A stretch of 64,000 nt of DNA from Candidatus Planktophila sp. (GTDB taxonomy: Bacteria > Actinomycetota > Actinomycetes > Nanopelagicales > Nanopelagicaceae), in NCBI GenBank assembly GCA_003569185.1, contig BGOJ01000001.1, forward strand, positions 252,557-316,556, given 5' to 3'. The notes under the pieces were generated by a model. That model was not told the DNA's origin and did not search any database. It worked only from the letters and a program-made list of their open reading frames with translations. Positions 2,102 to 47,675 of the stretch are shown here, one piece after another. The position numbers and the translations under genes were made by a program. The first letter of the stretch is position 1. Every line of letters starts with the position of its first letter.

Positions 2102-2819
2102 ATGCCACGTAAAGGTTATAAACGAGTGCTCCTTAAATTATCTGGTGAGGTTTTTGGCGGAGAAAAAAGGCATCGGTGTTGATCCTGATGTAGTCCATGA
2201 TGTGGCAAATCAAATCGCAGAGGTTGTTAGAGGCGGAACGCAGATTGCCATTGTGGTCGGCGGCGGAAATTACTTTAGAGGAGCTGAGCTTCAACAACGC
2301 GGCATGGATAGAGCGCGTGCTGATTACATGGGCATGCTTGGCACGGTAATGAATTGTTTAGCGCTACAAGATTTTCTAGAAAAAGAGGGTATTGAAACCC
2401 GCGTGCAAACTGCAATCACAATGGGTCAGGTGGCAGAGCCTTATGTGCCACGTCGTGCGATTAGACATTTAGAAAAGGGCAGAGTTGTAATTTTTGGAGC
2501 TGGTGCTGGTATGCCATTTTTTACCACCGACACAGTTGCCGCGCAGCGCGCACTTGAAATTGGTGTGGACGCACTCCTTTTGGCAAAAAGTGGTGTGGAT
2601 GGTGTTTATTCAGCTGATCCTCGTAAGGATAAGAGTGCAACAAAGTATGAGGCAATTTCCTATGATGAGGTTTTAAGTAAATCACTTGCAGTTGCAGATG
2701 CAGCTGCCTTTGCACTTTGCCGTGAGAACAAACTGCCAATTGTGATCTTTGATCTTAAAAATCAAGGCAATATCAGGCGGGCAGTATCTGGTGAAAGCAT
2801 TGGCACACTCGTCTCCTAA
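2102..2819 (+). CDS. pyrH: UMP kinase, frameshifted in this sequence
   Basis: Phosphorylates UMP to UDP in pyrimidine synthesis (amino acid kinase fold). The ATG follows AAAGGAGCGC and begins [16 protein letters not shown], the PyrH start. A run of six A at 2163-2168 should be five: removing one A gives Gly-Gly-Glu-Lys-Gly-Ile-Gly-Val-Asp and joins the rest of the enzyme, including the [11 protein letters not shown] block and the conserved [14 protein letters not shown]. The corrected length is about 238 residues, as usual. It lies between tsf and frr, the standard order. Confidence 0.94.
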
Positions 2820-2893
2820 GCCTCATTTATTACCGTATTTATAACCCTAAGTAATTTGCTAGTAGAGTTGGATTAATTAAAGGAGATGCAAAG

Positions 2894-3457
2894 ATGTCAG
2901 ATTTAAATAGCTCACTGGCTGAGTGCAACACCAAGATGAATAAAGCTATTGATGTTGCTAAAGAGGATTTCGCCACCATTAGAACCGGCAGAGCTCACCC
3001 AGCGATGTTTGCAAAGTTAATGGTTGATTACTACGGCACCGGCACTCCCTTATCTCAACTTGCAACTGTGCAGGTTCCAGAGGCCCGGCTTGCGCTAATT
3101 ACTCCTTATGACAAGGGCGCGATGGCAGCTATTGAAAAGGCAATTCGCGATTCAGATCTAGGTGTTAATCCAGGAAGTGATGGCACTGTAATTCGCGTTA
3201 ACTTTCCACAATTAACTGAAGAGCGACGCAAAGAGTTTATTAAGGTTGCAAAGGGCAAGGCGGAGGATTCAAAGGTTTCAATTCGTGCAATTAGGCGAAG
3301 TGCGAAAGAGGCGATGGAGAAGTTAGAAAAAGATGGCAAGGTTGGCAAAGATGATTTAGCCAGAGCTGAAAAAGAGCTAGAAAAAGTTACTGGTGAGCAC
3401 ACCGCGAAAATTGATGAGTTGCTAAAGCATAAAGAAGCTGAGCTGCTGGAGGTTTAA
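2894..3457 (+). CDS. frr: ribosome recycling factor
   Basis: Splits post-termination ribosomes together with EF-G. The 187-residue product matches the family length and its layout: a three-helix bundle with an inserted beta domain containing YYGTGTPLSQLA (about 46-57), then the long C-terminal helices with RKEFIKVAKGKAEDSKVSIR. The ATG has a strong AAAGGAG seven bases upstream. Its stop overlaps an ATG of the next gene. A 74-base spacer separates it from pyrH, so it may have its own promoter; a TAGAGT hexamer at 2863-2868 is a possible -10 box. Confidence 0.97.
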   Translation: MSDLNSSLAECNTKMNKAIDVAKEDFATIRTGRAHPAMFAKLMVDYYGTGTPLSQLATVQVPEARLALITPYDKGAMAAIEKAIRDSDLGVNPGSDGTVIRVNFPQLTEERRKEFIKVAKGKAEDSKVSIRAIRRSAKEAMEKLEKDGKVGKDDLARAEKELEKVTGEHTAKIDELLKHKEAELLEV

Positions 3458-3459
3458 TG

Positions 3460-4304
3460 ATGGCAGACCTGCACGCAATAAATGATGCGATAAATAAAAA
3501 GGCAGGTCGCAAACTTCTTCCTTCTATTTTAGTATCCCTATTTTTACTGGGATTAATTTTGGCACCATCAATACCCAACCACTCTTATTTTTTGGCCTTA
3601 TTTGGATTGTTATCATGATCGGAGTTCGAGAGATCACCGCTGCCTATGGCAAGGGCGGAATTGAACTACCTGATTATGTATTAATGATTGCAGCCACTGT
3701 TTTACTAGTGGCAACCTGGAATGGCAATACCCAAGGCCTTGCAGTTTCTGCTGGTCTTACCATCCCGATTTTAATGTTTACTTTGCTTTTAATCTCTCAA
3801 AAAGATTTTATTAAACGATCAACCTCCGCTGTTTTTATTACCTTCTACCTAGCTGTCCTTGGTGGATTTATCTTGTTGCTAGCAAATCATGAGGATGGGG
3901 CAACAAGAATTTTTGCATTGGTTGCCTTAATTGCCTGCAATGACACCTTTGCATATATTGCTGGAGTTTTAATTGGTAAGCACAAACTTGCGCCAAGTAT
4001 TTCTCCAAAGAAAAGTTGGGAAGGATTAATTGGGGGAGCGATCGCAGCTGTGATCGGTGGCTCATTTATCTTTAACTCACTCTTTGAAACCGCCTGGTTT
4101 GTTGGCGCATTAATTGGGTTGATGACAGTAGTTACTGCAACCTGTGGGGACTTGATTGAATCTGCGATAAAGAGAGATTTAGCAATTAAAGATATGTCTA
4201 ATTTACTGCCGGGCCATGGCGGGATTATGGATCGTTTAGATTCTGCCCTTTTCACAGCCCCAGCTGTTTGGTTTGCAATTGAATTAATTAATCGGTACTT
4301 ATAG
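3460..4304 (+). CDS. cdsA: phosphatidate cytidylyltransferase, frameshifted in this sequence
   Basis: Makes CDP-diacylglycerol from phosphatidic acid and CTP; an integral membrane enzyme. The start chosen is the ATG seven bases after GGAGG; another in-frame ATG lies three bases upstream. The first frame gives a basic N-terminus and the first membrane helix and then stops. A run of six T at 3588-3593 should be seven, which joins Ser-Tyr-Phe-Phe-Gly-Leu-Ile-Trp to IGVREITAAYGKGG. The second part has several membrane helices, the SPKKSWEGLIGG block and the C-terminal signature GDLIESAIKRDLAIKD followed by GHGGIMDRLDS. The corrected product is about 281 residues. Confidence 0.92.
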
Positions 4305-8184: not shown

Positions 8185-8205
8185 GTTTTAGACAAGTAGC
8201 TGGTG

Positions 8206-9332
8206 ATGGCGAACAGTAAAGTCTCACAAGATACTGGTGATTTAAAACTTAATAGAGTCTCTAAACATTACGGTGATTTTTGCGCCGTTGATGATCTGTC
8301 ATTAATCGTGCCAGATGGCTCCTTCTTCGCACTCCTTGGACCATCTGGTTGCGGTAAAACCACAACACTTCGAATGATTGCAGGCTTAGAGGAGCCAAGT
8401 GCTGGAACTATTTCAATTGGCGATACTGATATCACAACCCAAAAATCATATCGACGAAATGTAAATACAGTATTTCAAAATTACGCATTATTTCCTCACC
8501 TAACAATTTTGAAAATATCGCCTTCGGTTTACGTCGGCGTGGAATTAAAGATGTTAAAACTGAGGTTGAAAATGCGTTAAATCTGGTGGAGATGGGCCAT
8601 TTGGCTGAGCGCAAACCAAATCAATTATCAGGTGGGCAACAACAACGTATTGCAGTGGCTAGAGCAATTGTTAACCGGCCAGAGGTTTTATTACTTGATG
8701 AGCCACTTGGCGCACTTGATCTAAAGCTGCGCCGGCAGATGCAGATTGAGTTAAAGCGAATTCAAACTGAGGTTGGAATTACCTTTATTCACGTCACCCA
8801 TGATCAAGAAGAGGCAATGACCATGGCTGACACCATTGCGGTGATGAATCAAGGAAAGATTGAGCAAATGGGAAGTGCAACTGATCTTTATGAGGCGCCA
8901 AAGACCGCATTTGTTGCTAACTTTTTAGGTCAATGCAATTTGATTAAAGGAAAAATAACTTCAAGAGGTGGGGATAAGGCAACAGTTACCGCTAAAGGCT
9001 TAACCTTTGAAGTTCCACTATCTCGGGTTGCAACTAGCAGTGATAGCGTATTTTTGGGAGTCCGCCCAGAAAAACTTCGCTTAGATGACAGCGGCGTTAA
9101 CTCAATTAAGAATTGTGTTGTTACCGATCGCTCATTTGTTGGCACCTCAACCCAATACTTAGTAAGAGCGCCATGGGATTTAGAGCTGGTTGTTTTTGAA
9201 CAAAATGATGAAGGATTACATGATCTTCGGGTTGGCGATACCGTCTCTCTTGAGTGGGATGCCGAACACACCTTTGCATTAGATGGTGCTGGCGATATTA
9301 ATGCTGGCGCTGATCTTGATGATGAAGAGTAA
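8206..9332 (+). CDS. potA: polyamine ABC transporter ATP-binding protein, frameshifted in this sequence
   Basis: Cytoplasmic ATPase of the importer. The first frame has Walker A GPSGCGKTT (about residues 46-54) and the Q-loop segment VFQNYALFPHLT. T4 at 8507-8510 should be T5: this restores Thr-Ile-Phe-Glu-Asn-Ile-Ala-Phe-Gly-Leu-Arg and leads into the second frame with the ABC signature LSGGQQQRIA, Walker B LLLDEPLGALD, the switch histidine HVTHDQEEA and a C-terminal TOBE domain. A GTG directly before the ATG is an alternative start. The deletion is most likely a read error, since both halves are well conserved. Confidence 0.9.
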
Positions 9333-9335
9333 GTA

Positions 9336-10238
9336 ATGGCTTTTCTGCACGCAGTCTCATCTGGTCACTCAGCTACTAAAAATGTTTTAAAGAAAAGATC
9401 TTTAACTCCCTATTTACTTCTTGCCCCTGGCTTAATTTGGCTAATCACATTTTTTATCATTCCGATATTTTCCTTGGCCAGCACATCAACCATGGTCAGA
9501 CCAGATGGTGCTCAGGTTGGGGTTTATGAACAAAAGCTTAGGTTTGCAAATTATGTTGATGCATTTGTGGCCAACCAGGATCAATACCTTCGATCATTTT
9601 TCTATGCTGCCCTTGCAACTTTGCTGGCATTAGCAATTGCTTATCCGCTGGCTTATGCAATTGCTTTTAAATCAGGTAAGTATCGAAATATTTTACTTGT
9701 CTTAGTTATCGCACCATTTTTTACCTCATTCTTATTAAGAACTATTGCCTGGACTCAGATTTTGGCTGACTCTGGCCCAGTAGTTAGTGCAATAAAGGTT
9801 TTACCTTTTATTGATGATTTGTTTCGAATAAACAACACCTCAACTGCGGTAGTAATTGGCCTTGCCTATAACTTTCTTCCCTTTATGACCTTGCCACTTT
9901 ATGCAAGCTTGGAGCGAATTGATCCAAGAACTCTTGAGGCGGCAGGGGATTTATATGCAAATGGTCTGACCACCTTTAGAAAGGTGACACTTCCATTATC
10001 TATGCCAGGAGTTGTAGCTGGCACTCTTTTGACCTTTATCCCTGCAGCTGGTGATTATGTGAACGCTGCGATCTTAGGTAATCCAAATACCAAGATGATT
10101 GGAAATGTTATTGAGTCTCGCTTCTTTGCTGTGGTGGATTACCCAACTGCTGCTGCGCTTTCATTTACTTTAATGGCAACTATTTTAATTTTGGTAACAC
10201 TTTATATTCGAAAGTCTGGAACGGATGAGTTGGTATGA
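9336..10238 (+). CDS. potB: polyamine ABC transporter permease, PotB type
   Basis: Inner-membrane permease, 300 residues, with about six predicted helices and the cytoplasmic EAA loop LEAAGDLYANGLTTFRKVTL that contacts the ATPase. A long extracytoplasmic stretch after the first helix (roughly residues 45-85) is normal for PotB. The gene starts three bases after potA and overlaps potC by ATGA, so the three transporter genes are translationally coupled. Confidence 0.9.
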   Translation: MAFLHAVSSGHSATKNVLKKRSLTPYLLLAPGLIWLITFFIIPIFSLASTSTMVRPDGAQVGVYEQKLRFANYVDAFVANQDQYLRSFFYAALATLLALAIAYPLAYAIAFKSGKYRNILLVLVIAPFFTSFLLRTIAWTQILADSGPVVSAIKVLPFIDDLFRINNTSTAVVIGLAYNFLPFMTLPLYASLERIDPRTLEAAGDLYANGLTTFRKVTLPLSMPGVVAGTLLTFIPAAGDYVNAAILGNPNTKMIGNVIESRFFAVVDYPTAAALSFTLMATILILVTLYIRKSGTDELV

Positions 10239-11062
10239 CAACTATTAACGCTCCAATGCCAAGTTTGAGCCATCGTGCCTCAAGATGGTTTTCCCGAAAC
10301 TTAATCAGAATTTATGCTGCCCTTGCATTTATTTATCTATTTATTCCAGTTGCCTACACATTTGCCTTCTCATTCAATAATGCTGGAAAAAGCAACCTGG
10401 TTTGGCAAGGTTTTACTTTAGAAAACTGGAAAAACCCATGTGGTGCACCGCAAGTTTGTGAGGCGGTAGGAAACTCATTAAAGATTGGTGTGATCTCAAC
10501 ATTACTGGCCACCATATTAGGAACCATGATTGCTTTTGCATTAGGTAGATATAAATTTAAAGGGCGCACATCAACAAATCTTCTAATTTTCCTTCCAATG
10601 GCAACACCAGAGGTAGTACTCGGCGCCTCTTTACTTGCAATGTTTTTAAACCTACGAGTTAACCCTGGTTTTTGGACCATCGTTATCTCACATGTGATGT
10701 TTTGTATTTCCTTTGTGGTGGTAACTGTTAAGGCAAGAATTGCATCTTTAGATCCTCGGCTTGAACAGGCGGCAATGGACCTTTATGCAAATGAGAAGGA
10801 AACCTTTAGATATGTGACCTTGCCACTTGTGATGCCAGGTATTGCAGGAGCTGCACTATTGGCCTTTTCACTTTCCTTTGATGATTTTATTATCACTAAC
10901 TTTAACTCCGGCACAGTTTCAACATTTCCAAAGTTTGTTTATGTATCAGCGGCTCGCGGAATCCCAGCACAAGCAAATGTGATTGGTAGTGCGATGTTCT
11001 TTATTGCGCTGATCATTGTTATAGTCGGCCAAGTTGTTAGCCGGAAACGAAAGAAGTCATGA
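10235..11062 (+). CDS. potC: polyamine ABC transporter permease, PotC type
   Basis: Second permease of the importer, 275 residues. It has six predicted membrane helices and the EAA loop LEQAAMDLYANEKETFRYVTLP. The insert GGAPQVCEAVGN-like region (about 67-79) with two cysteines sits in the first external loop. The start overlaps potB by ATGA. Its own stop overlaps, again by ATGA, the start of a truncated copy of the downstream ureohydrolase gene. This indicates that potB, potC and the ureohydrolase were once one coupled unit. Confidence 0.9.
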   Translation: MTTINAPMPSLSHRASRWFSRNLIRIYAALAFIYLFIPVAYTFAFSFNNAGKSNLVWQGFTLENWKNPCGAPQVCEAVGNSLKIGVISTLLATILGTMIAFALGRYKFKGRTSTNLLIFLPMATPEVVLGASLLAMFLNLRVNPGFWTIVISHVMFCISFVVVTVKARIASLDPRLEQAAMDLYANEKETFRYVTLPLVMPGIAGAALLAFSLSFDDFIITNFNSGTVSTFPKFVYVSAARGIPAQANVIGSAMFFIALIIVIVGQVVSRKRKKS

Positions 11063-11112
11063 CAAATATCGGCAATATGTATGGCCCCGATTTTACCTTT
11101 CTTGGTAATTAG
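11059..11112 (+). pseudogene. orphan 5' end of an agmatinase-family gene (first 16 codons)
   Basis: Codons 1-16 encode exactly the same peptide, MTNIGNMYGPDFTFLG, as the start of the intact ureohydrolase 1.6 kb downstream, followed by one codon and TAG. Over the 48 bases the two copies differ at five sites, all third codon positions and all synonymous (AAT/AAC, CCC/CCA, TTT/TTC, ACC/ACA, GGT/GGC). The ATG overlaps the potC stop as ATGA. The pattern indicates divergence under protein-level selection in two lineages, followed by recombination, rather than a fresh tandem copy. Confidence 0.8.
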
Positions 11113-11168
11113 AAAAAGGTTTGATATTTAGTTTTTATACCCACACATATTGGGGCTATGTACGAACC

Positions 11169-11184
11169 TTCTAGATTTCTAGAA
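11169..11184. repeat. perfect inverted repeat TTCTAGA-TT-TCTAGAA
   Basis: A 7-bp dyad with a two-base centre lies about 100 bases upstream of the metallopeptidase start, in the intergenic part of the accessory insert. It could be an operator for a dimeric regulator; no matching regulator is visible nearby. Confidence 0.5.
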
Positions 11185-11234
11185 TTAGCAATAATCTACA
11201 TCCAAGGACTTACATTTGCTAGATATTGAACGGG

Positions 11235-11253
11235 TTTAGGTCAGATATGGGCG
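11235..11253 (+). repeat. 19-bp direct repeat, left copy
   Basis: TTTAGGTCAGATATGGGCG occurs identically at 12609-12627, on the other side of the metallopeptidase gene. A repeat of this length is not expected by chance in 64 kb. The left copy continues into ATGGGCGATTACC, a 13-mer also present in the intact ureohydrolase gene (codons 59-62 region), which may be a remnant of the original gene. Confidence 0.75.
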
Positions 11254-11284
11254 ATTACCCATTGCATCAGCTAAATACACAATC

Positions 11285-11296
11285 TATTCTCTATCA
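11285..11296 (+). promoter_or_regulatory. leaderless promoter -10 box of the metallopeptidase gene
   Basis: TATTCT ends six bases before the ATG. There is no Shine-Dalgarno sequence between them. Confidence 0.5.
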
Positions 11297-12585
11297 ATGA
11301 ACAAGAAGTTGATTACTTTCTTATCAATACTTTTTCTTTTCCTGTCCACTCCCATAATTCCAGTAAATGCTGCTGCCAAAGCAGGAGCGAAATGCAACAA
11401 GGCTGGATTTACTACTATTGCAGCTGGCAAGACATATACATGCATTAAATCTGGCAAGAAATTGGTTTGGAGTAAGGGTATTCCGCTATCAAAATTACCT
11501 GTAGTGCAAGCAATAGATCTTTCTAAATTTACAAACATAACTCCCTCAACTGAACTTTCTGCGCCAGAAATCTGTAAAACTGTTGATATAACTCCAAGTA
11601 TGACTTTCAGTAATGGTTTTCCTAGACCAAGTTTTAGCCTGAATGGAAAAACTGAAATAAAGTTGCTTGTATTGCCAATAATATTTGATGAAATTCCCTT
11701 TACAAATACTGATCTTACAAACTTAGAAAATGCAATTAAGAGTACAAGTGAATTTTACTCAAAAATGTCCTATGGAAGACTAAAGCTGATTTTCGAAATA
11801 CCAGAACGAGAATTATGGGTTAAGCTTTTAAAATCAGCTAAATCATATGGAATCATTCCTAATTTGCCACAACAGAATAATGAAATAATTGCAGTGGATG
11901 CTATTGCACTTGCTGATAAGCAAATTAATTTAAGTGCATACCAAAGTGTGATTATAGAGTCTGGCTATAGTACTTTGACCAGTATTGGCCAAGGAATGGG
12001 TGGGAAAACCTTTGTCGGAAAAACTGGATCTATTGTTGGAGCAACGCTAGAAATAGGTGAAGCAGTTGGTCGTGCATCCGTAATTTCACATGAGCTGGGG
12101 CATAACCTCTTTGGTTTAGAAGATCTGTATGTTTTTTTAAATAGTAAACGCCCCACAGTTCCAGAGCCGCAACCTGCTGGCAAGTGGGATGTAATGAGCG
12201 AAGGCGGATCGCTTGTTCCTGGATTCTTTGGATGGAATCGATTACTTATGGGTTGGCTATCTGACAGTGAAATCAGGTGCATAAAAAATCAAAACTCTAC
12301 AACGCACTTTCTATCCAATATAGATAGCGTAACTGATCCTAAATTGGTTATGATCAATGTTGCTAGTGGAATTACCATAGCAATGGAATCTCGTGTGATT
12401 GATTCAAAAATCAGGGGTTATTGGTGTATAAAATTGATTCAAATACAAATCATGGAGATGGCCCAATTAATGCTGAGAAAAACCTTTTGTCTTTGGGTGA
12501 GAGCATAAGATTAGATAATTGGAATATTTCTGTGTCTGCCACTTCACCTTCAGGATTAATAGTTAAAGTAGAAAAATCTGCTTAG
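11297..12585 (+). CDS. secreted M6-like zinc metallopeptidase, frameshifted in this sequence
   Basis: Predicted exported protease. Residues 1-25 form a signal peptide (basic start, hydrophobic core, Val-Asn-Ala-Ala). A small module with a cysteine pair (Cys33, Cys49) ending in Lys-Leu-Val-Trp follows. The zinc site HELGHN begins at His265, with Leu-Glu-Asp seven residues further on, as in M6/immune-inhibitor-A-like peptidases (HExxH plus a downstream acidic ligand). Near 12414-12419 one base is missing; restoring it gives Ile-Arg-Gly-Leu-Leu-Val-Tyr-Lys-Ile-Asp, a usual M6 C-terminal strand, and a product of about 429 residues. The gene looks more AT-rich than its neighbours and sits in an insert bounded by repeats, so it is probably acquired. 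A short GCCC-AA-GGGC dyad overlaps the stop. Its target is unknown. Confidence 0.75.
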
Positions 12586-12608
12586 CCCAAGGGCGAATCT
12601 TCTTTTTA

Positions 12609-12627
12609 TTTAGGTCAGATATGGGCG
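12609..12627 (+). repeat. 19-bp direct repeat, right copy
   Basis: Identical to 11235-11253. Together the two copies bracket the metallopeptidase gene and its leaderless promoter, giving a repeat unit of about 1.37 kb. Confidence 0.75.
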
Positions 12628-12682
12628 GATACTATAAAATATTGAATGTTTAATTCATAATCACTTATAAAACCAGTACATA

Positions 12683-12694
12683 TATACTGCTCTC
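12683..12694 (+). promoter_or_regulatory. leaderless promoter -10 box of the ureohydrolase gene
   Basis: TATACT, close to the consensus TATAAT, ends six bases before the ATG. This gives the gene transcription independent of potABCD, unlike the ATGA-coupled orphan copy behind potC. Confidence 0.6.
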
Positions 12695-13693
12695 ATGACA
12701 AACATCGGCAATATGTATGGCCCAGATTTCACATTTCTTGGCATTCCAAGATGTGATTTAGATAAGCCTGAGAGTTATAAAGGTGCAGATGTAATTATTG
12801 TTGGTGCACCAATTGATAGCGGAACCTCTCATCGATCAGGGGCGAAGATGGGTCCACAAGCTATTCGAATGGGCGATTACCTTCCACATGATGCCTCCCG
12901 GCCACATCTTGCAATGCGAATTGATCCATTACAAAAACTAAAGATTTTTGATGCAGGAGATTTGTTAATGCCAGGTGGAGATTTAGTTAATTCACTCAAA
13001 GTTTTAGAGGTTGCAACTGAGAAGATTTCAAAAGCTGGCGCAATCGCTGTTGTATTAGGGGGAGATCATTCAATTGCTTCAGCTGATGTGGCAGGAATTG
13101 CAAATCATTTAGGTAAGGGCAAAGTTTCAATGATTCATTTTGATGCTCATGCTGATACTGGTGAGGATCAATTTGGCGCACTAATTGGTCATGGCACACC
13201 AATGCGCAGATTAATTGAATCAGGATCTGTTCGTGGAGATCGCTTTTTGCAATTAGGACTTCGTGGTTACTGGCCAGATGATGCCACTTTAAAGTGGATG
13301 GCTGGCAAAGGAATGAAATCTTATGAGATGACTGAGATTCATCACCGCGGAATGAAAGCGGTATTAGATGAATCATTTTCCATTCTTACCGATGGTTGTG
13401 AAGGAGTCTTTTTATCTGTTGATATTGATGTAGTTGATCCAGGTATGGCGCCTGGCACTGGCACACCAGAGCCAGGGGGAATGACTAGTAGAGAGTTATT
13501 AGAAGCGGTACGAAGAATTTGTTTTGAATTACCAATTGTTGGCATTGATGTGGTTGAGGTGGCACCTGCTTATGACAGCAGCGATATCACTGCAATCTTG
13601 GCTAATCGAGTGGTGCTTGAGGCACTTAGTGCGATTGCGCTTAAGAAAGCAGGCGGTACTTACTCTGCCACTAGAAACTTACTGGATCGTTAA
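12695..13693 (+). CDS. speB: agmatinase-family ureohydrolase
   Basis: Manganese enzyme of the arginase/agmatinase superfamily, 332 residues, most likely converting agmatine to putrescine and urea. The metal ligands are visible: His134 in GGDHS, Asp150/His152/Asp154 in HFDAHADT, and Asp243/Asp245 in SVDIDVVDPG. Polyamine import and aminobutyraldehyde oxidation genes upstream and a GABA-type transaminase downstream support an amine role. Guanidinobutyrate or another guanidino compound is a real alternative, because the motifs are shared across the family. The gene replaces a truncated copy left behind potC. Its stop abuts that of the convergent GNAT gene with no spacer. Confidence 0.85.
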   Translation: MTNIGNMYGPDFTFLGIPRCDLDKPESYKGADVIIVGAPIDSGTSHRSGAKMGPQAIRMGDYLPHDASRPHLAMRIDPLQKLKIFDAGDLLMPGGDLVNSLKVLEVATEKISKAGAIAVVLGGDHSIASADVAGIANHLGKGKVSMIHFDAHADTGEDQFGALIGHGTPMRRLIESGSVRGDRFLQLGLRGYWPDDATLKWMAGKGMKSYEMTEIHHRGMKAVLDESFSILTDGCEGVFLSVDIDVVDPGMAPGTGTPEPGGMTSRELLEAVRRICFELPIVGIDVVEVAPAYDSSDITAILANRVVLEALSAIALKKAGGTYSATRNLLDR

Positions 13694-21599: not shown

Positions 21600-22046
21600 A
21601 TGGGAAAGAAAGAAGAGATAATTGCGGCGATTACTCCCGCATTAGAAGCCCTCGGTTTTTACCTAGAGGATGTAACAATTACTTCAGCTGGCAGGCGCAG
21701 CATGTTAACTGTCATAGTAGATGGGGATACTCATCTCTCACTCGATCAAGTTACAACAGCTACCAAGGGAATTAGTGAGATTGTTGAAGGCATTCAAAGT
21801 TTAGGTCAAACCCCTTTTACCTTAGAGGTTACCTCGCCTGGTTTAGATCGACCACTTACCAAGCCAAGGCATTGGCGAAAAAATCTTGATCGTTTAGTAA
21901 AGGTAGTTTTGCTAGATGGCAAAGAGGTTAAGGGCAGAGTTAAAGATGTAAGTGAAAGTAATGCAACTCTTGATGAGCAGGTAATTAACTTCGCCGATAT
22001 TAAGCGCGCCACCCTTGAGATTGAGTTTAAGCAGGTGGGCAAGTGA
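21600..22046 (+). CDS. rimP: ribosome maturation factor RimP
   Basis: Assists 30S subunit maturation. The 148 residues match the two-domain RimP fold: N-terminal part with TLEVTSPGLDRPLTKPRHW (about 78-96) and a C-terminal SH3-like barrel. GAAGGA lies upstream of the ATG. It opens the rimP-nusA-ylxR-infB-rbfA run, and its stop overlaps the nusA GTG start. Confidence 0.95.
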   Translation: MGKKEEIIAAITPALEALGFYLEDVTITSAGRRSMLTVIVDGDTHLSLDQVTTATKGISEIVEGIQSLGQTPFTLEVTSPGLDRPLTKPRHWRKNLDRLVKVVLLDGKEVKGRVKDVSESNATLDEQVINFADIKRATLEIEFKQVGK

Positions 22047-23069
22047 GTGTTGATGTTGAAGCACTTAAACTTTTAGCCCAAGAAAAGAAATTACCACTTG
22101 AGCGATTAATCAATGCAATTGAAAATGAGGTTGCAAAAGCATATGCCGAGCTACCAGTTGCCAAACCACATGGACGTGCGGTTTTAAATCGCCAAACTGG
22201 TGAGTTAGTAATTTATGTGCCACTACTTGGTCCAGATGGTGATCGGTTAGACACAGTTGTTGATAACCCAGATGGTTTTGCAAAGTTAGCTGATAAAACT
22301 GCGCGCAAAGTTATTAAAGAGAAGATGCGCGAGGCAAAAGATCTTGAAGTTGTTACAGAGTTCTCCGGCAGTGTCGGTGATGTGATTGGTGGGATTGTGC
22401 AGCAAGGAAGAGATGCTGATGTTATCTATGTAAGTTTGGGAAGAGTTGAAGGAAAGGTGCCACCTAGTGAGCAGGTAAAGGGTGAGGTTTATAACATGGA
22501 GATCGAATTAAATGTTTTGTGGTTGATGTTAAGCAGGGTGAAAAAGGACCAGAGGTAACTTTATCTAGAACACATCCAGCATTTGTAAAGATGTTATTTG
22601 CACTGGAGGTTCCAGAGATTAAAGAGCGAGTAGTAGATATTGTTGGAATAGCACGAGAGCCTGGGGCAAGAACAAAGTTATCGGTTAGAACTCATCGCGC
22701 CGGAGTAAGCGCCAAGGGTGCATTAATTGGCCCGCAAGGTTCTAGAGCGCAAAATGTTATGAATGAATTAAATGGTGAAAAATAGACATCATTGATTTCT
22801 CTGAAGATCCTGCTACTTATGTTGCAAATGCGTTAGCGCCTGCCAAGGTAAGCTCAGTTGAGATTGTTGATTTAGAGAGCAAATCTGCCAAGGTGATTGT
22901 GCCGGATTATCAATTATCACTTGCAATTGGTAAGGATGGTCAAAATGCCAGACTTGCCGCTCGCCTTACCCAATGGCGAATTGATATCCATCCAGATAAT
23001 CCAGTAACGCAGATTAAGGCGGAAAAGACAGAGGAAGCGGCAACTATTTCACCCATCCAAGGGGCTTAG
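22043..23069 (+). CDS. nusA: transcription termination/antitermination protein NusA, two frameshifts in this sequence
   Basis: RNA polymerase-binding factor for pausing, termination and antitermination. The N-terminal domain occupies about residues 1-125, an S1 domain follows ([19 protein letters not shown]), then two KH domains ([39 protein letters not shown]). Break 1 at about 22495: AACATGG should be AACCATGG, giving Tyr-Asn-His-Gly-Asp-Arg-Ile-Lys. Break 2 at 22778-22782: A5 should be A6, giving Gly-Glu-Lys-Ile-Asp-Ile-Ile-Asp. Corrected length is about 342 residues, the actinobacterial size without the acidic C-terminal repeats of enterobacteria. GTG start overlaps rimP. Confidence 0.92.
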
Positions 23070-23452: not shown

Positions 23453-26082
23453 GTGGCCAAGGTCCGCGTTTATGAGTTAGCGAAAGAGTTAGGGCTAGAA
23501 AGCAAAGAGCTCTTATCTAAGCTGCAAGAGGTTGGCGAATTTGTTCGCTCAGCATCATCAACTGTTGAAGCACCGGTTGTGCGCAAGTTGATGGATAAGT
23601 TTCCAGATTTAGTACCGGCAGAGGCTGCGCCAAAAGCTAAAAAAGCTCCAACGAAAAAAGCTGCGGCTAAGAAAACTGTGAAGGTGGAGGATTTACCACC
23701 TGAGTTACAAAAAATGGTTGAGGATGCAACACCAGTAGCGCGCCCTGCAACACCAACAGCACGCCCAGCTAATAATCCATTCTCAGCAGGTAGTGGCACA
23801 CCAACACCACCAAGTGCAATGCCACGACCACCAAGAGCTGGAAATAATCCATTTAGTACTGGCGGCGGTGGACCACGACCACCTGCAAGACCAATTAGAC
23901 CTGGTGAGGCGGGAAGAACTCCAGGAAAATTACAACCTGGTCAACGTCCACCAATGTCAGGTGCTCGTCCTGGCTCTGTTCGTCCAGGATTTGCAGCTCG
24001 TCCACCATCTAGTAATCCAAGACCAAATACTGGTGCGCCAACATCATCTCGTCCTGGCTCCTCTTCATCTCCGTATCGCACACCCTCCTCATCGCCAGCT
24101 GGCTCACCATTTGGTGGTAAAGGTGGCGGACGTCCACCACAACGTGGTGGTGCAGCGGGTGCATTTGGTAAAGGTGGTAAAGGTAAAAATAAAAATCGCG
24201 GACAAAAGAGTAAAAAAGAAAGACGTGAAGATTTTGAAAATCTACCAGCACCACAATTAGGTGGCGCAGTAGTTCCAAGAGGTGATGGCAAGACGGTAGT
24301 TCGCATGCGCCGTGGTGCAACTTTGATGGATTTTGCCGAGAAAATTAAGCAGATCCAGCCGCATTGGTTTCAGCCCTTTTCCATTTAGGTGAGATGGTTA
24401 CTGCAACTCAATCAGTTGATGAAGACACCTTCACATTGTTGGGAGCAGAGCTTGGCTTTGTAATTCAGATCGTAAGCCCTGAGGATGAAGATCGTGAGTT
24501 GCTTGCAGAGTTTGAGATCAATTTAGAGGAGGAGTTAGCTCAAATTGATCCAGAGGATCTGGTTGTGCGCTCGCCAATTGTTACTGTTATGGGACATGTT
24601 GATCATGGTAAAACTAGATTGTTAGATGCAATTCGATCAACTGAGGTTATAAAGTCTGAGGCAGGTGGAATTACTCAGCATATTGGTGCCTACCAAATTC
24701 ACCATGAACATGATGGAGCAGAACGCGCAATTACCTTTATTGATACTCCGGGCCATGAAGCTTTTACAGCGATGCGTGCTCGAGGTGCGAAGGTAACTGA
24801 TATTGCAGTACTTGTTGTGGCTGCCGATGATGGAGTTATGCCACAGACAATTGAAGCGTTAAATCACGCCCAAGCTGCTGATGTACCAATCGTGGTTGCA
24901 GTAAACAAAATAGATAAAGAGGGTGCTAACCCAGACAAGATTCGTCAGCAGTTAACTGAGTACAACCTGATCGCTGAAGAGTATGGCGGACAGACCATGT
25001 TCGTAAATGTCTCTGCTCTTTCTGGCAAAGGAATTGATGATCTAATCGCGGCAATTTTGTTAACAGCAGATGCAGCGATTGATTTGCGCGCAATTGCAGA
25101 TGACATTGCCAGAGGTGTTGCGATTGAAGCAAATCTTGATAAGGGCCGTGGACCAGTTGCAACTGTTTTGGTCCAACGCGGAACTTTGCATGTTGGAGAT
25201 GCGATTGTGGCTGGTGGTGCATATGGCCGCGTTCGTGCGATGTTAGATGAGCATGGACAAACCTTGGAAGAGGCAGGTCCATCACGTCCAGTTCAAGTTC
25301 TTGGATTTACATCTGTTCCAGGTGCTGGTGATTCATTTATTGTTGCCGAGGATGATCGAACTGCACGACAGATCGCAGAGAAGCGTCAACTTGCATCAAG
25401 AAATGCATCCTTAGCTAAGGCACGCAAGAAGGTTTCACTTGAAGATTTCTTGGAGCAATCAAAGGTAACTACTTTGAACTTAATTCTAAAGGGCGATGTT
25501 TCTGGATCGGTAGAAGCCTTAGAGGATGCGTTAGTTCAATTAGATGTTGGTACTGAGGTTGATCTAAGAGTTATTCACCGTGGTGTTGGTGCGATTACTA
25601 AGAATGACGTTACCTTGGCATCTGCTTCAACGGCAGTAATCATTGGCTTTAACGTCAAGCCTGAGCCACAAACTGCAATCTTTGCTGAACAAGAAGGTGT
25701 GGAAGTTAAGTTCTACACCGTTATTTACAAGGCAATTGAAGAGATCGAAGCATCTCTTAAGGGACTTCTTAAGCCAGAGTTTGAAGAGGCAGTACTTGGT
25801 AATGCTGAAATTAGAGACATATTTAAATCAAGCAAGTTTGGAAATATTGCTGGTTGCGTAGTTTCTGATGGAATTATTCGCCGAAATGCCAAGGTTCGAA
25901 CTATGCGAGCTGGTGTTGTGATTGGTGAAAACTTAAGCATTGAATCACTTCGAAGATTTAAAGATGATGCCACTGAGGTTCGCGATGGATTTGAGTGCGG
26001 TATTGGTCTTGGATCATTTAAGGATCTTCAGGTAGGAGATGTAATTCAAGCTTATGAAATCCGTGAGAAAAAGCGGGCTTAA
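23453..26082 (+). CDS. infB: translation initiation factor IF-2, frameshifted in this sequence
   Basis: GTPase that brings initiator tRNA to the 30S subunit. GTG start with AGAAGGAGAA. Residues 1-50 form the N-terminal IF2 helix domain ([16 protein letters not shown]). Residues about 85-265 are low-complexity Pro/Gly/Arg/Ser linker, then [18 protein letters not shown]. At about 24348 ATTAAGCAGAT should read ATTAAGGCAGAT, restoring [13 protein letters not shown]. The G domain then follows with [10 protein letters not shown] (G1), DTPGHEAF (G3) and NKIDK (G4), then the C-terminal domains. Corrected length about 877 residues. Confidence 0.94.
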
Positions 26083-46238: not shown

Positions 46239-47675
46239 ATGCCTACCTTTGTAGTTGAAACCTACGGCTGTCAGATGAATGTTCATGACTCCGAACGTAT
46301 CTCAGGTCTTTTACTAGATGCTGGTTACACCCAAGCATTGGCAGATACTCAACCAGATTTAGTTGTTTTCAATACCTGTGCGGTTAGAGAAAATGCTGAT
46401 AATAAACTTTATGGAAATCTATCCTTCTTAGCACCTCGCAAGAAAAGTGATCCAAACTTTCAAATTGCAGTTGGTGGTTGCATGGCGCAAAAAGATCAAG
46501 ATGCGATTATTAAGCGAGCTCCATATGTGGATGTGGTGTTTGGAACTCACAATATTGGCTCTCTGCCAATCTTGTTAGAACGTGCTCGAATTGAGGAAGC
46601 ATCTCAGGTTGAAATTAAAGAATCACTAGAGCACTTCCCATCCACCTTGCCGGTCAAACGTGATTCGGCCTTTTCTGCCTGGGTTTCAGTTTCAGTTGGT
46701 TGTAATAACACCTGCACATTTTGCATCGTGCCATCCCTGCGCGGAATTGAGAAAGATAGGCCAGCGGATGAAATTATGAAAGAGGTTAAAGCATTAGTTG
46801 CTCAAGGGGTAATTGAAATTACCTTATTAGGCCAGAATGTAAATGCATATGGCGTTGATTTTGGTGATCGAGGTGCTTTTGCAAAATTGCTTCGTCCAAT
46901 GTGGTGAGGTTGAAGGCTTAGAGCGGGTTAGATTTATGTCGCCTCATCCAAGAGATTTCACTGATGATGTAATTGAAGCGATGGCGCAAACCAAAAATGT
47001 TATGCCTCACCTGCACATGCCATTGCAATCAGGTAGTAATCAGATTTTACAAGCGATGCGAAGGTCCTACCGCAGAGAGAGATACTTAGGAATTATTGAG
47101 AAGGTGCGAGAAGCTATGCCGGAGGCTGCAATTACGACCGACATAATTGTTGGCTTTCCTGGGGAAAGTGATGATGATTTTGCCCAGACTATTGATTTGG
47201 TTAAACAAGCTAAATTTTCAGCAGCTTATACATTTCAATACTCAAAGCGTCCGGGCACACCTGCTGCCAGCATGCCTAATCAAATAGCTGATGATGTAAT
47301 GGCAGATCGGTATAACCAGCTGCATAAAATTCAGCAGGAGATTTCAAAGAGTGAAAATGGCAAGTTAATTGGTAAAGATATTGAATTACTGGTTTCAGGC
47401 CATGAGGGTCGTCATGATATTGATCAAAATCGGATGAATGGGCGCAGCGCAGATTTTAGGCTAACCCATTTTGATAACTCAGCTGCAACTGCCAGACCTG
47501 GTGATCTAGTTAAGGTGAAGGTAGTTGAAGCTTTTGCAAACCACATTGTGGCAAGTGCGCCGATATCTGTAACAAAACTCGTGGTGGTGATGCTCATGCC
47601 AGTTGGATGGCAGAAAAAGGGGATAAAAAGATTTTACTTGGGATACCAACTTTGGCATCTTTAAAATCTTTATGA
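46239..47675 (+). CDS. miaB: tRNA-2-methylthio-N6-dimethylallyladenosine synthase MiaB, two frameshifts in this sequence
   Basis: Radical SAM methylthiotransferase acting on i6A37 of tRNAs. UPF0004 domain with [20 protein letters not shown]; radical SAM motif [15 protein letters not shown] (about 157-171). Break 1 at 46896-46897: CGTCCAATG should be CGTCAATG, giving Leu-Leu-Arg-Gln-Cys-Gly-Glu-Val-Glu-Gly. Break 2 at 47574-47577: A4 should be A5, giving Val-Thr-Lys-Thr-Arg-Gly-Gly-Asp-Ala and an end that overlaps miaA by ATGA. A TRAM domain lies near the C-terminus. TAGAAT ends seven bases before the ATG. Confidence 0.92.

Follow-up and report, generated by a model that had tools for sequence, protein, structure and literature searches.

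How can a bacterium take in new genes at the very start of a core gene and still keep that gene whole? In other words, what happened between potC and speB in a 64,000-nucleotide stretch from Candidatus Planktophila sp. (the window, meaning the whole of that stretch), where the beginning of speB occurs twice? On the plus strand, potC (10235..11062), a polyamine ABC transporter permease gene whose best NCBIfam match is PotC at 211 bits, under the equivalog cut-off, overlaps an orphan speB start in the ATGA of its stop (AAGTCATGACA). This orphan, or stub (11059..11112, plus strand), holds 16 speB codons and then AAT TAG. The intact gene, of the agmatinase/ureohydrolase family, follows at 12695..13693 on the same strand and matches Pfam Arginase (PF00491; 277.5 bits, 1.7e-82, over the curated cut-off) and TIGR01230 agmatinase (186.5, passing a cut-off of 174.3); six nucleotides 5' of its ATG stands TATACT (12683..12688, plus strand), which, to judge by its sequence, would be a leaderless-type -10 element. 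The first-pass annotation of the window had reported the doubled 16 codons with five synonymous differences, and a repeat search of the region returns just that: a 49-nt direct repeat (11057-11105 and 12693-12741, 92% identity, spacing 1636) made up of the first 16 codons of speB, by far the longest repeat of the region. As that annotation also held, the insert has parted speB from potC and given it a promoter of predicted leaderless type.

The duplicated start is not a matter of chance: no other repeat in the region is as long, and relatives have it too. Nor is it a misassembly of two strains, which the annotation had named as a possible refutation; this is ruled out by the same junction in independent assemblies (G013, G001, G016 and G224). 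The window-type stub, with the left end of the insert attached, is found in two near-complete one-contig genomes (G013 and G001), in the single-cell genome SCGC AAA278-I18 (G016, KB900443.1), assigned to acI-B1 (PMC5962901), and, at potC-ATGA, in G224. That is, the class extends to three congeners and one genome of a second genus, with the stub ending there within codons 22-25. As G016 is an acI-B1 genome, the window belongs to the acI lineage. In the three congeners the stub is ~74 nt long and ends at one nucleotide, with GATAAGCC before the junction and GTTTATTTAG after it; the end in G224 lies within ~3 codons of that point, and G010 has similar sequence. A 27-codon ORF, MTNIGNMYGPDFTFLGIPRCDLDKPFI, runs across stub and left end in G013 and G016, with a start variant in G001. 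By this comparison, the stub in the window is a decayed form of the 25-codon stub of its relatives: it has lost ~12 nt and ends at codon 16-17, after which comes the common left end. The 16-codon duplication is thus present as described, but the original was ~25 codons long.

How widely has this boundary been disturbed? We surveyed 296 genomes of the family, among them 18 of the window's genus with a speB start. The annotation had predicted strains in which potC and speB are directly joined by ATGA, and such strains turned up both in this genus (4 of 18: G005, G008, G012 and G023) and in a second one, g17 (seven genomes: G040, G072, G155, G165, G170, G175 and G232). Three more of the 18 have a gap of <30 nt (G007, G016 and G018), and the other 11 carry inserted DNA (G000, which is the window's genome, G001, G006, G009, G010, G011, G013, G014, G015, G019 and G022), as do G051, G150, G215, G224 and G228 in the second genus. 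Occupied junctions contain 0.2-3.7 kb of differing cargo, and the content is not the same among G000, G001, G009, G010, G013, G015, G019, G022, G051, G150, G215 and G228. The other feared outcome, that all relatives would be alike with identical copies, is not what is seen: the junction varies, and in many strains it is uninterrupted. Displaced speB 5' stubs occur in nine genomes of the two genera (G000, G001, G010, G013, G014, G016, G051, G150 and G224) and in several contexts, so the single event that had been proposed does not hold. In the remainder of the 296, a second match to the speB start occurs only in G038, G219 and G261.

Several neighbors of this arrangement are worth recording for themselves. 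G009 (L065/L067) has a secreted-protein gene whose start shares the ATGA of the potC stop; in G019 (L065/L067), only the first codons of a gene of that type are left at potC, a second displaced 5' end at the same spot. G215 and G228 (L137, L139) have a tryptophan synthase beta-like gene between potC and speB, without a stub. G051 (L132, reverse strand, 2227-3470) has a 1.2-kb insert between the copies of a 72-75-nt direct repeat of the potC end and the speB start, and this insert holds the apparent 5' half of a tRNA gene.

Which came first, the joined gene or the interrupted one? Two upstream backgrounds provide before and after states. In the first, the ATGA-joined speB of G005 and others stands against the potC-ATGA-stub-left end order of G000; in the second, G006 and G014 have an upstream block, TATACT and an intact speB, whereas in G013 and G001 that block and promoter lead into a stub of 25 codons. 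The second genus adds another pair, with the intact ATGA-joined speB of G165 and G170 before and G224 after. On these pairs, in both upstream backgrounds, it is the resident speB 5' end that was displaced. G000 and G013 share 92.6% identity across the 11 kb that end at window position 11058; the interval from potC to the stub differs between them, and from the stub onward they are alike again, a pattern that on this alignment would be a breakpoint at the stub.

We therefore come to the explanation that we favor, and that we hold to be somewhat more probable than its contrary: an island with its own speB start and promoter has been loaded recurrently at potC-speB, with its present spread owed to homologous recombination, possibly on top of an ancient site-specific insertion. 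The potC-speB boundary would be a recurrent cargo loading site in two sister genera of acI (Nanopelagicaceae). Incoming DNA would consist of a left end, at least one secreted-protein gene, and a promoter of its own along with a working speB 5' end, and its point of entry would fall within codons 1-25 of the speB already there; the resident promoter and 5' codons would then stay upstream as the stub, with the incoming promoter and codons completing the gene. Movement in the present would be RecA-type homologous recombination, for which the two speB 5' copies could serve as homology arms when an island enters, or leaves, a strain whose speB is not interrupted, and a common promoter/signal-peptide module would permit islands to exchange cargo bodies. 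The constant left junction and the conserved palindromes described below may be a relic of the older, site-specific insertion. That islands move by transfer at all is something we infer from comparing genome sequences.

This fits the flexible islands of aquatic prokaryotes, for which exchange by homologous recombination has been proposed and boundary substitutions are mostly synonymous (PMC4033161). Replacement islands of that kind also place differing genes for exposed or secreted products at one location (PMC4033161), and close strains do have different content at this one. The speB locus differs in having for its boundary a displaced, incomplete copy of the adjoining gene, which is its unusual feature, and in being uninterrupted in many strains. 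Some observations count against our favored explanation. Arms of 48-75 nt are short for RecA. The duplication in G051 takes in the last 24 nt of potC as well as the speB start, and several inserts have no stub at potC (G009, G010, G015, G019 and G022 in the first genus, G215 and G228 in the second).

Did the two speB starts ever belong to different cells? Replication template switching says not: a segment copied within one cell would have been inserted, with 50-75 nt of potC/speB duplicated when replication resumed and no donor speB involved. The near-perfect direct repeat of ~72-75 nt over the potC end and speB start in G051 counts in its favor. Yet copies made in this way would start identical, and the stub would then drift without constraint, whereas the stub and intact gene of the window differ by five synonymous changes and no nonsynonymous ones over 16 codons. 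Of random single changes in the speB 48-mer, ~20-22% are synonymous, and drift without constraint would give five of five with p ~3e-4 to 6e-4. Moreover, in G000, G013 and G001 the two copies have unlike sequence upstream. We consider template switching very improbable. The claim that the copies diverged in separate lineages, which had been drawn from this synonymy, agrees with the five of five; but synonymy by itself is weak ground for it, as nearly every difference at the speB 5' end among strains of this genus is of that kind. The proposed comparison of codons 1-16, with 3 to 11 differences in 48 nt, is too short to resolve a tree.

The stubs outside the window's class end elsewhere: ~codon 17-19 in G051, codon 15 in G150 and ~codon 16 in G014. 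Scatter of this kind counts against our favored explanation, and more than one mechanism may act. It would be accounted for by one-sided homology (homology-facilitated illegitimate recombination, HFIR): the right end of a linear molecule would pair with the resident speB, its left end would be joined illegitimately close to where speB starts, each stub would be an independent accident, and selection would preserve potC along with a complete speB. Documented cases of HFIR come from competent bacteria, and like the speB inserts, it combines one homologous with one illegitimate end, a short foreign insert and no recombinase of its own (PMC3240628), so the missing recombinases would be explained too. 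However, joints spread uniformly predict stubs of up to 1 kb, and all those seen have <=25 codons; the class-1 left junction (that of the window's class) recurs in nearly the same place in two genera; and the deletion that usually accompanies HFIR is about the size of the insertion (PMC3240628), whereas no compensating deletion is seen in the flanks. HFIR is, in our estimate, an unlikely explanation.

The left end of the insert (11120..11205, plus strand) brings us to hints of something more specific than homology. Joined to the stub, it occurs among the 296 family genomes in the five that have such a junction and nowhere else. It contains two palindromes: the first (11142..11164), with 8-bp arms and a variable 7-bp spacer, has the consensus CATACATA-N7-TATGTATG and in the window reads CACACATA-N7-TATGTACG; the second (11169..11184) is TTCTAG-N4-CTAGAA. 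The G224 left end is ~80% identical to the copies of the first genus, and against G001 none of its 28 stem bases has changed versus 8 of 15 loop or spacer bases (p=4e-5). The stub of G224 is native to its own genus, differing at 1 of 66 nt from the intact speB of G165. In G224, then, the stub is young and the left end old: either the left end would have been rejoined to fresh host sequence near the same nucleotide, or the stub would have been homogenized with an intact copy. Homologous recombination through the duplicated speB 5' end could explain such rejoining without a new enzyme; site-specific loading could do so as well, and could explain the palindromes besides. The stem-biased conservation suggests a protein-binding site, which homologous recombination would not need. 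No compensatory changes (covariation) were found in the left-end palindromes and, for that reason, DNA binding appears as good a reading of them as RNA structure.

Might the islands, then, be elements in the strict sense? One possibility, which we rate as tentative and well short of probable, is a non-autonomous site-specific integrative element that targets codon 25 of speB, brings a replacement 5' end (as SXT does in prfC), and is moved at its palindromic left end by a recombinase acting in trans, from a phage, a plasmid or Xer. To about the same low degree, we can imagine a recombinase-less cassette family of streamlined freshwater actinobacteria, with the speB 5' end as target, a replacement promoter and 25 codons, the two left-end palindromes, and movement in trans. 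A left junction common to two genera and to several upstream contexts speaks for a site-specific element, as does the stem conservation, and so does the distribution of palindrome 1, of which (allowing up to 2 mismatches) every one of the five class-1 genomes has a single copy and the uninterrupted genomes G005 and G165 have none. Against it, no serine recombinase (PF00239) was found in the 11 genomes searched, and PF00589 matches there roughly equal the XerC/XerD complement, plus weak partial ones in G001 and G014; the palindromes do not sit at the junction but downstream of it; right ends vary; no full dif-like match rises above chance; and the left end is missing from viral contigs.

SXT supplies prfC with a new 5' end and promoter. 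The SXT/R391 ICEs integrate in the 5' end of prfC (PMC2791158), and the speB islands are like them in targeting the 5' end of a conserved gene. They share with them, too, a constant junction in that 5' end with a displaced native copy (G013, G001 and G016, with G224 ~3 codons off). They differ in being 0.2-3.7 kb long, without integrase or conjugation genes: no integrase borne by an element was found in the 11 genomes, and the window insert has no integrase ORF. The loading, as the annotation had supposed, looks to be of a non-transposon kind. The replacement 5' end is present, but its flank is not constant: the TATACT flank is common to G000 and G013, and G001 and G010 have other right flanks, so that no single, unchanging promoter was brought in. 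Recombination is what we favor for present movement; the left junction may have had a site-specific origin.

Other identities for the left end were tried and set aside. It is not a decayed speB copy (the local alignment is not significant), it is not carried by viruses (no match in viral contigs), and palindrome 1 is not a regulon operator (one site per genome only). A Xer/dif-type site is likewise ruled out: the left end and the putative dif of G001 and G005 have ATAATCTACA in common, but no dif-like 28-mer of the islands exceeds shuffles, and G224 has no ATAATCTACA match. The putative dif itself is CGCCGATAATCTACATTATGTAAA in G001 and G005 (L148-L150), and G013 differs by one base.

Could the stub be there for the cargo? 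We give very little credence, the least that we give to any reading here, to the idea that stub and left end, with the 27-codon ORF and the palindromes, have been retained as a leader that regulates expression of the cargo gene. The stub does lie upstream of the cargo gene on the same strand, the stop of the 27-codon ORF and the palindromes are conserved, and speB codons 5-9 have their exact complement in CCATACATATT (0-1/400 controls in G001, G013 and G016). Nevertheless, stubs decay in G010, G014 and G150, codons have been lost in G000, and the cargo has a 5' module of its own; an RNA leader is ruled out by the lack of an Rfam match and of covariation.

If our favored explanation of recurrent island loading is right, the speB stubs make it possible to read how very small genomes without obvious mobile elements have gained genes, each stub marking one displacement of a core gene's start, and they suggest that streamlined bacteria may swap secreted proteins without transposons. 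Stub, left end and palindromes together offer an exact sequence with which homologous and site-specific loading could be compared in population reads. A partial literature search found no paper on the speB-stub locus.

What, finally, is being loaded? The cargo of the window (11297..12508, plus strand) is a secreted metallopeptidase, as the annotation had it, and M6-like, with a signal peptide, a shared N-terminal domain and HELGHNLFGLEDLY; its HExxHxxGxxD-type motif is HELGHNLFGLED. Against the M6 domain model TIGR03296, it scores 71.2 bits (E 1.3e-19; cut-off 110.8), and it has no match among sequences of solved structures. A 49-nt 5' module (promoter/leader; 11206..11254, plus strand) lies ~43 nt before its ATG, and the same module precedes secreted-protein genes in other islands of the family, ~43-50 nt 5' of the ATG at the loci inspected. 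Cargo genes thus have a common promoter and signal-peptide module with variable bodies; the window cargo resembles both G013 cargo genes over the first ~180 nt only (5' module and N-terminus). A 20-nt remnant of a second module (12608..12627, plus strand) is probably the trace of a lost second cargo gene. G016 has a stub, left end and cargo gene within an array that other conserved genes border, and its own speB is uninterrupted, which suggests that the module was relocated. The polymorphic toxins, with a conserved N-terminal part and swappable C-terminal bodies spread by recombination (PMC3482391), are similar in design, but the cargo at speB resembles secreted proteases with a common promoter and signal peptide.

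Arrays of secreted-protein genes also occur at L071 3700-9500, L074 1300-6500 and L072 7900-13000, with a common promoter, signal peptide and ~65-residue N-terminal part and with dissimilar bodies; an island adjoining bcp differs in content between G016 and G021. The cargo frame changes at a G run near 12413-12419, and the other frame carries the C-terminus on to 12585. Apparent frameshifts are found in core genes of the window too (tsf, potA, nusA, infB and miaB by ORF content; 1234-2061, 8203-9332, 22043-22558, 23453-26082 and 46239-47664); these look like base-run indel errors of assembly.
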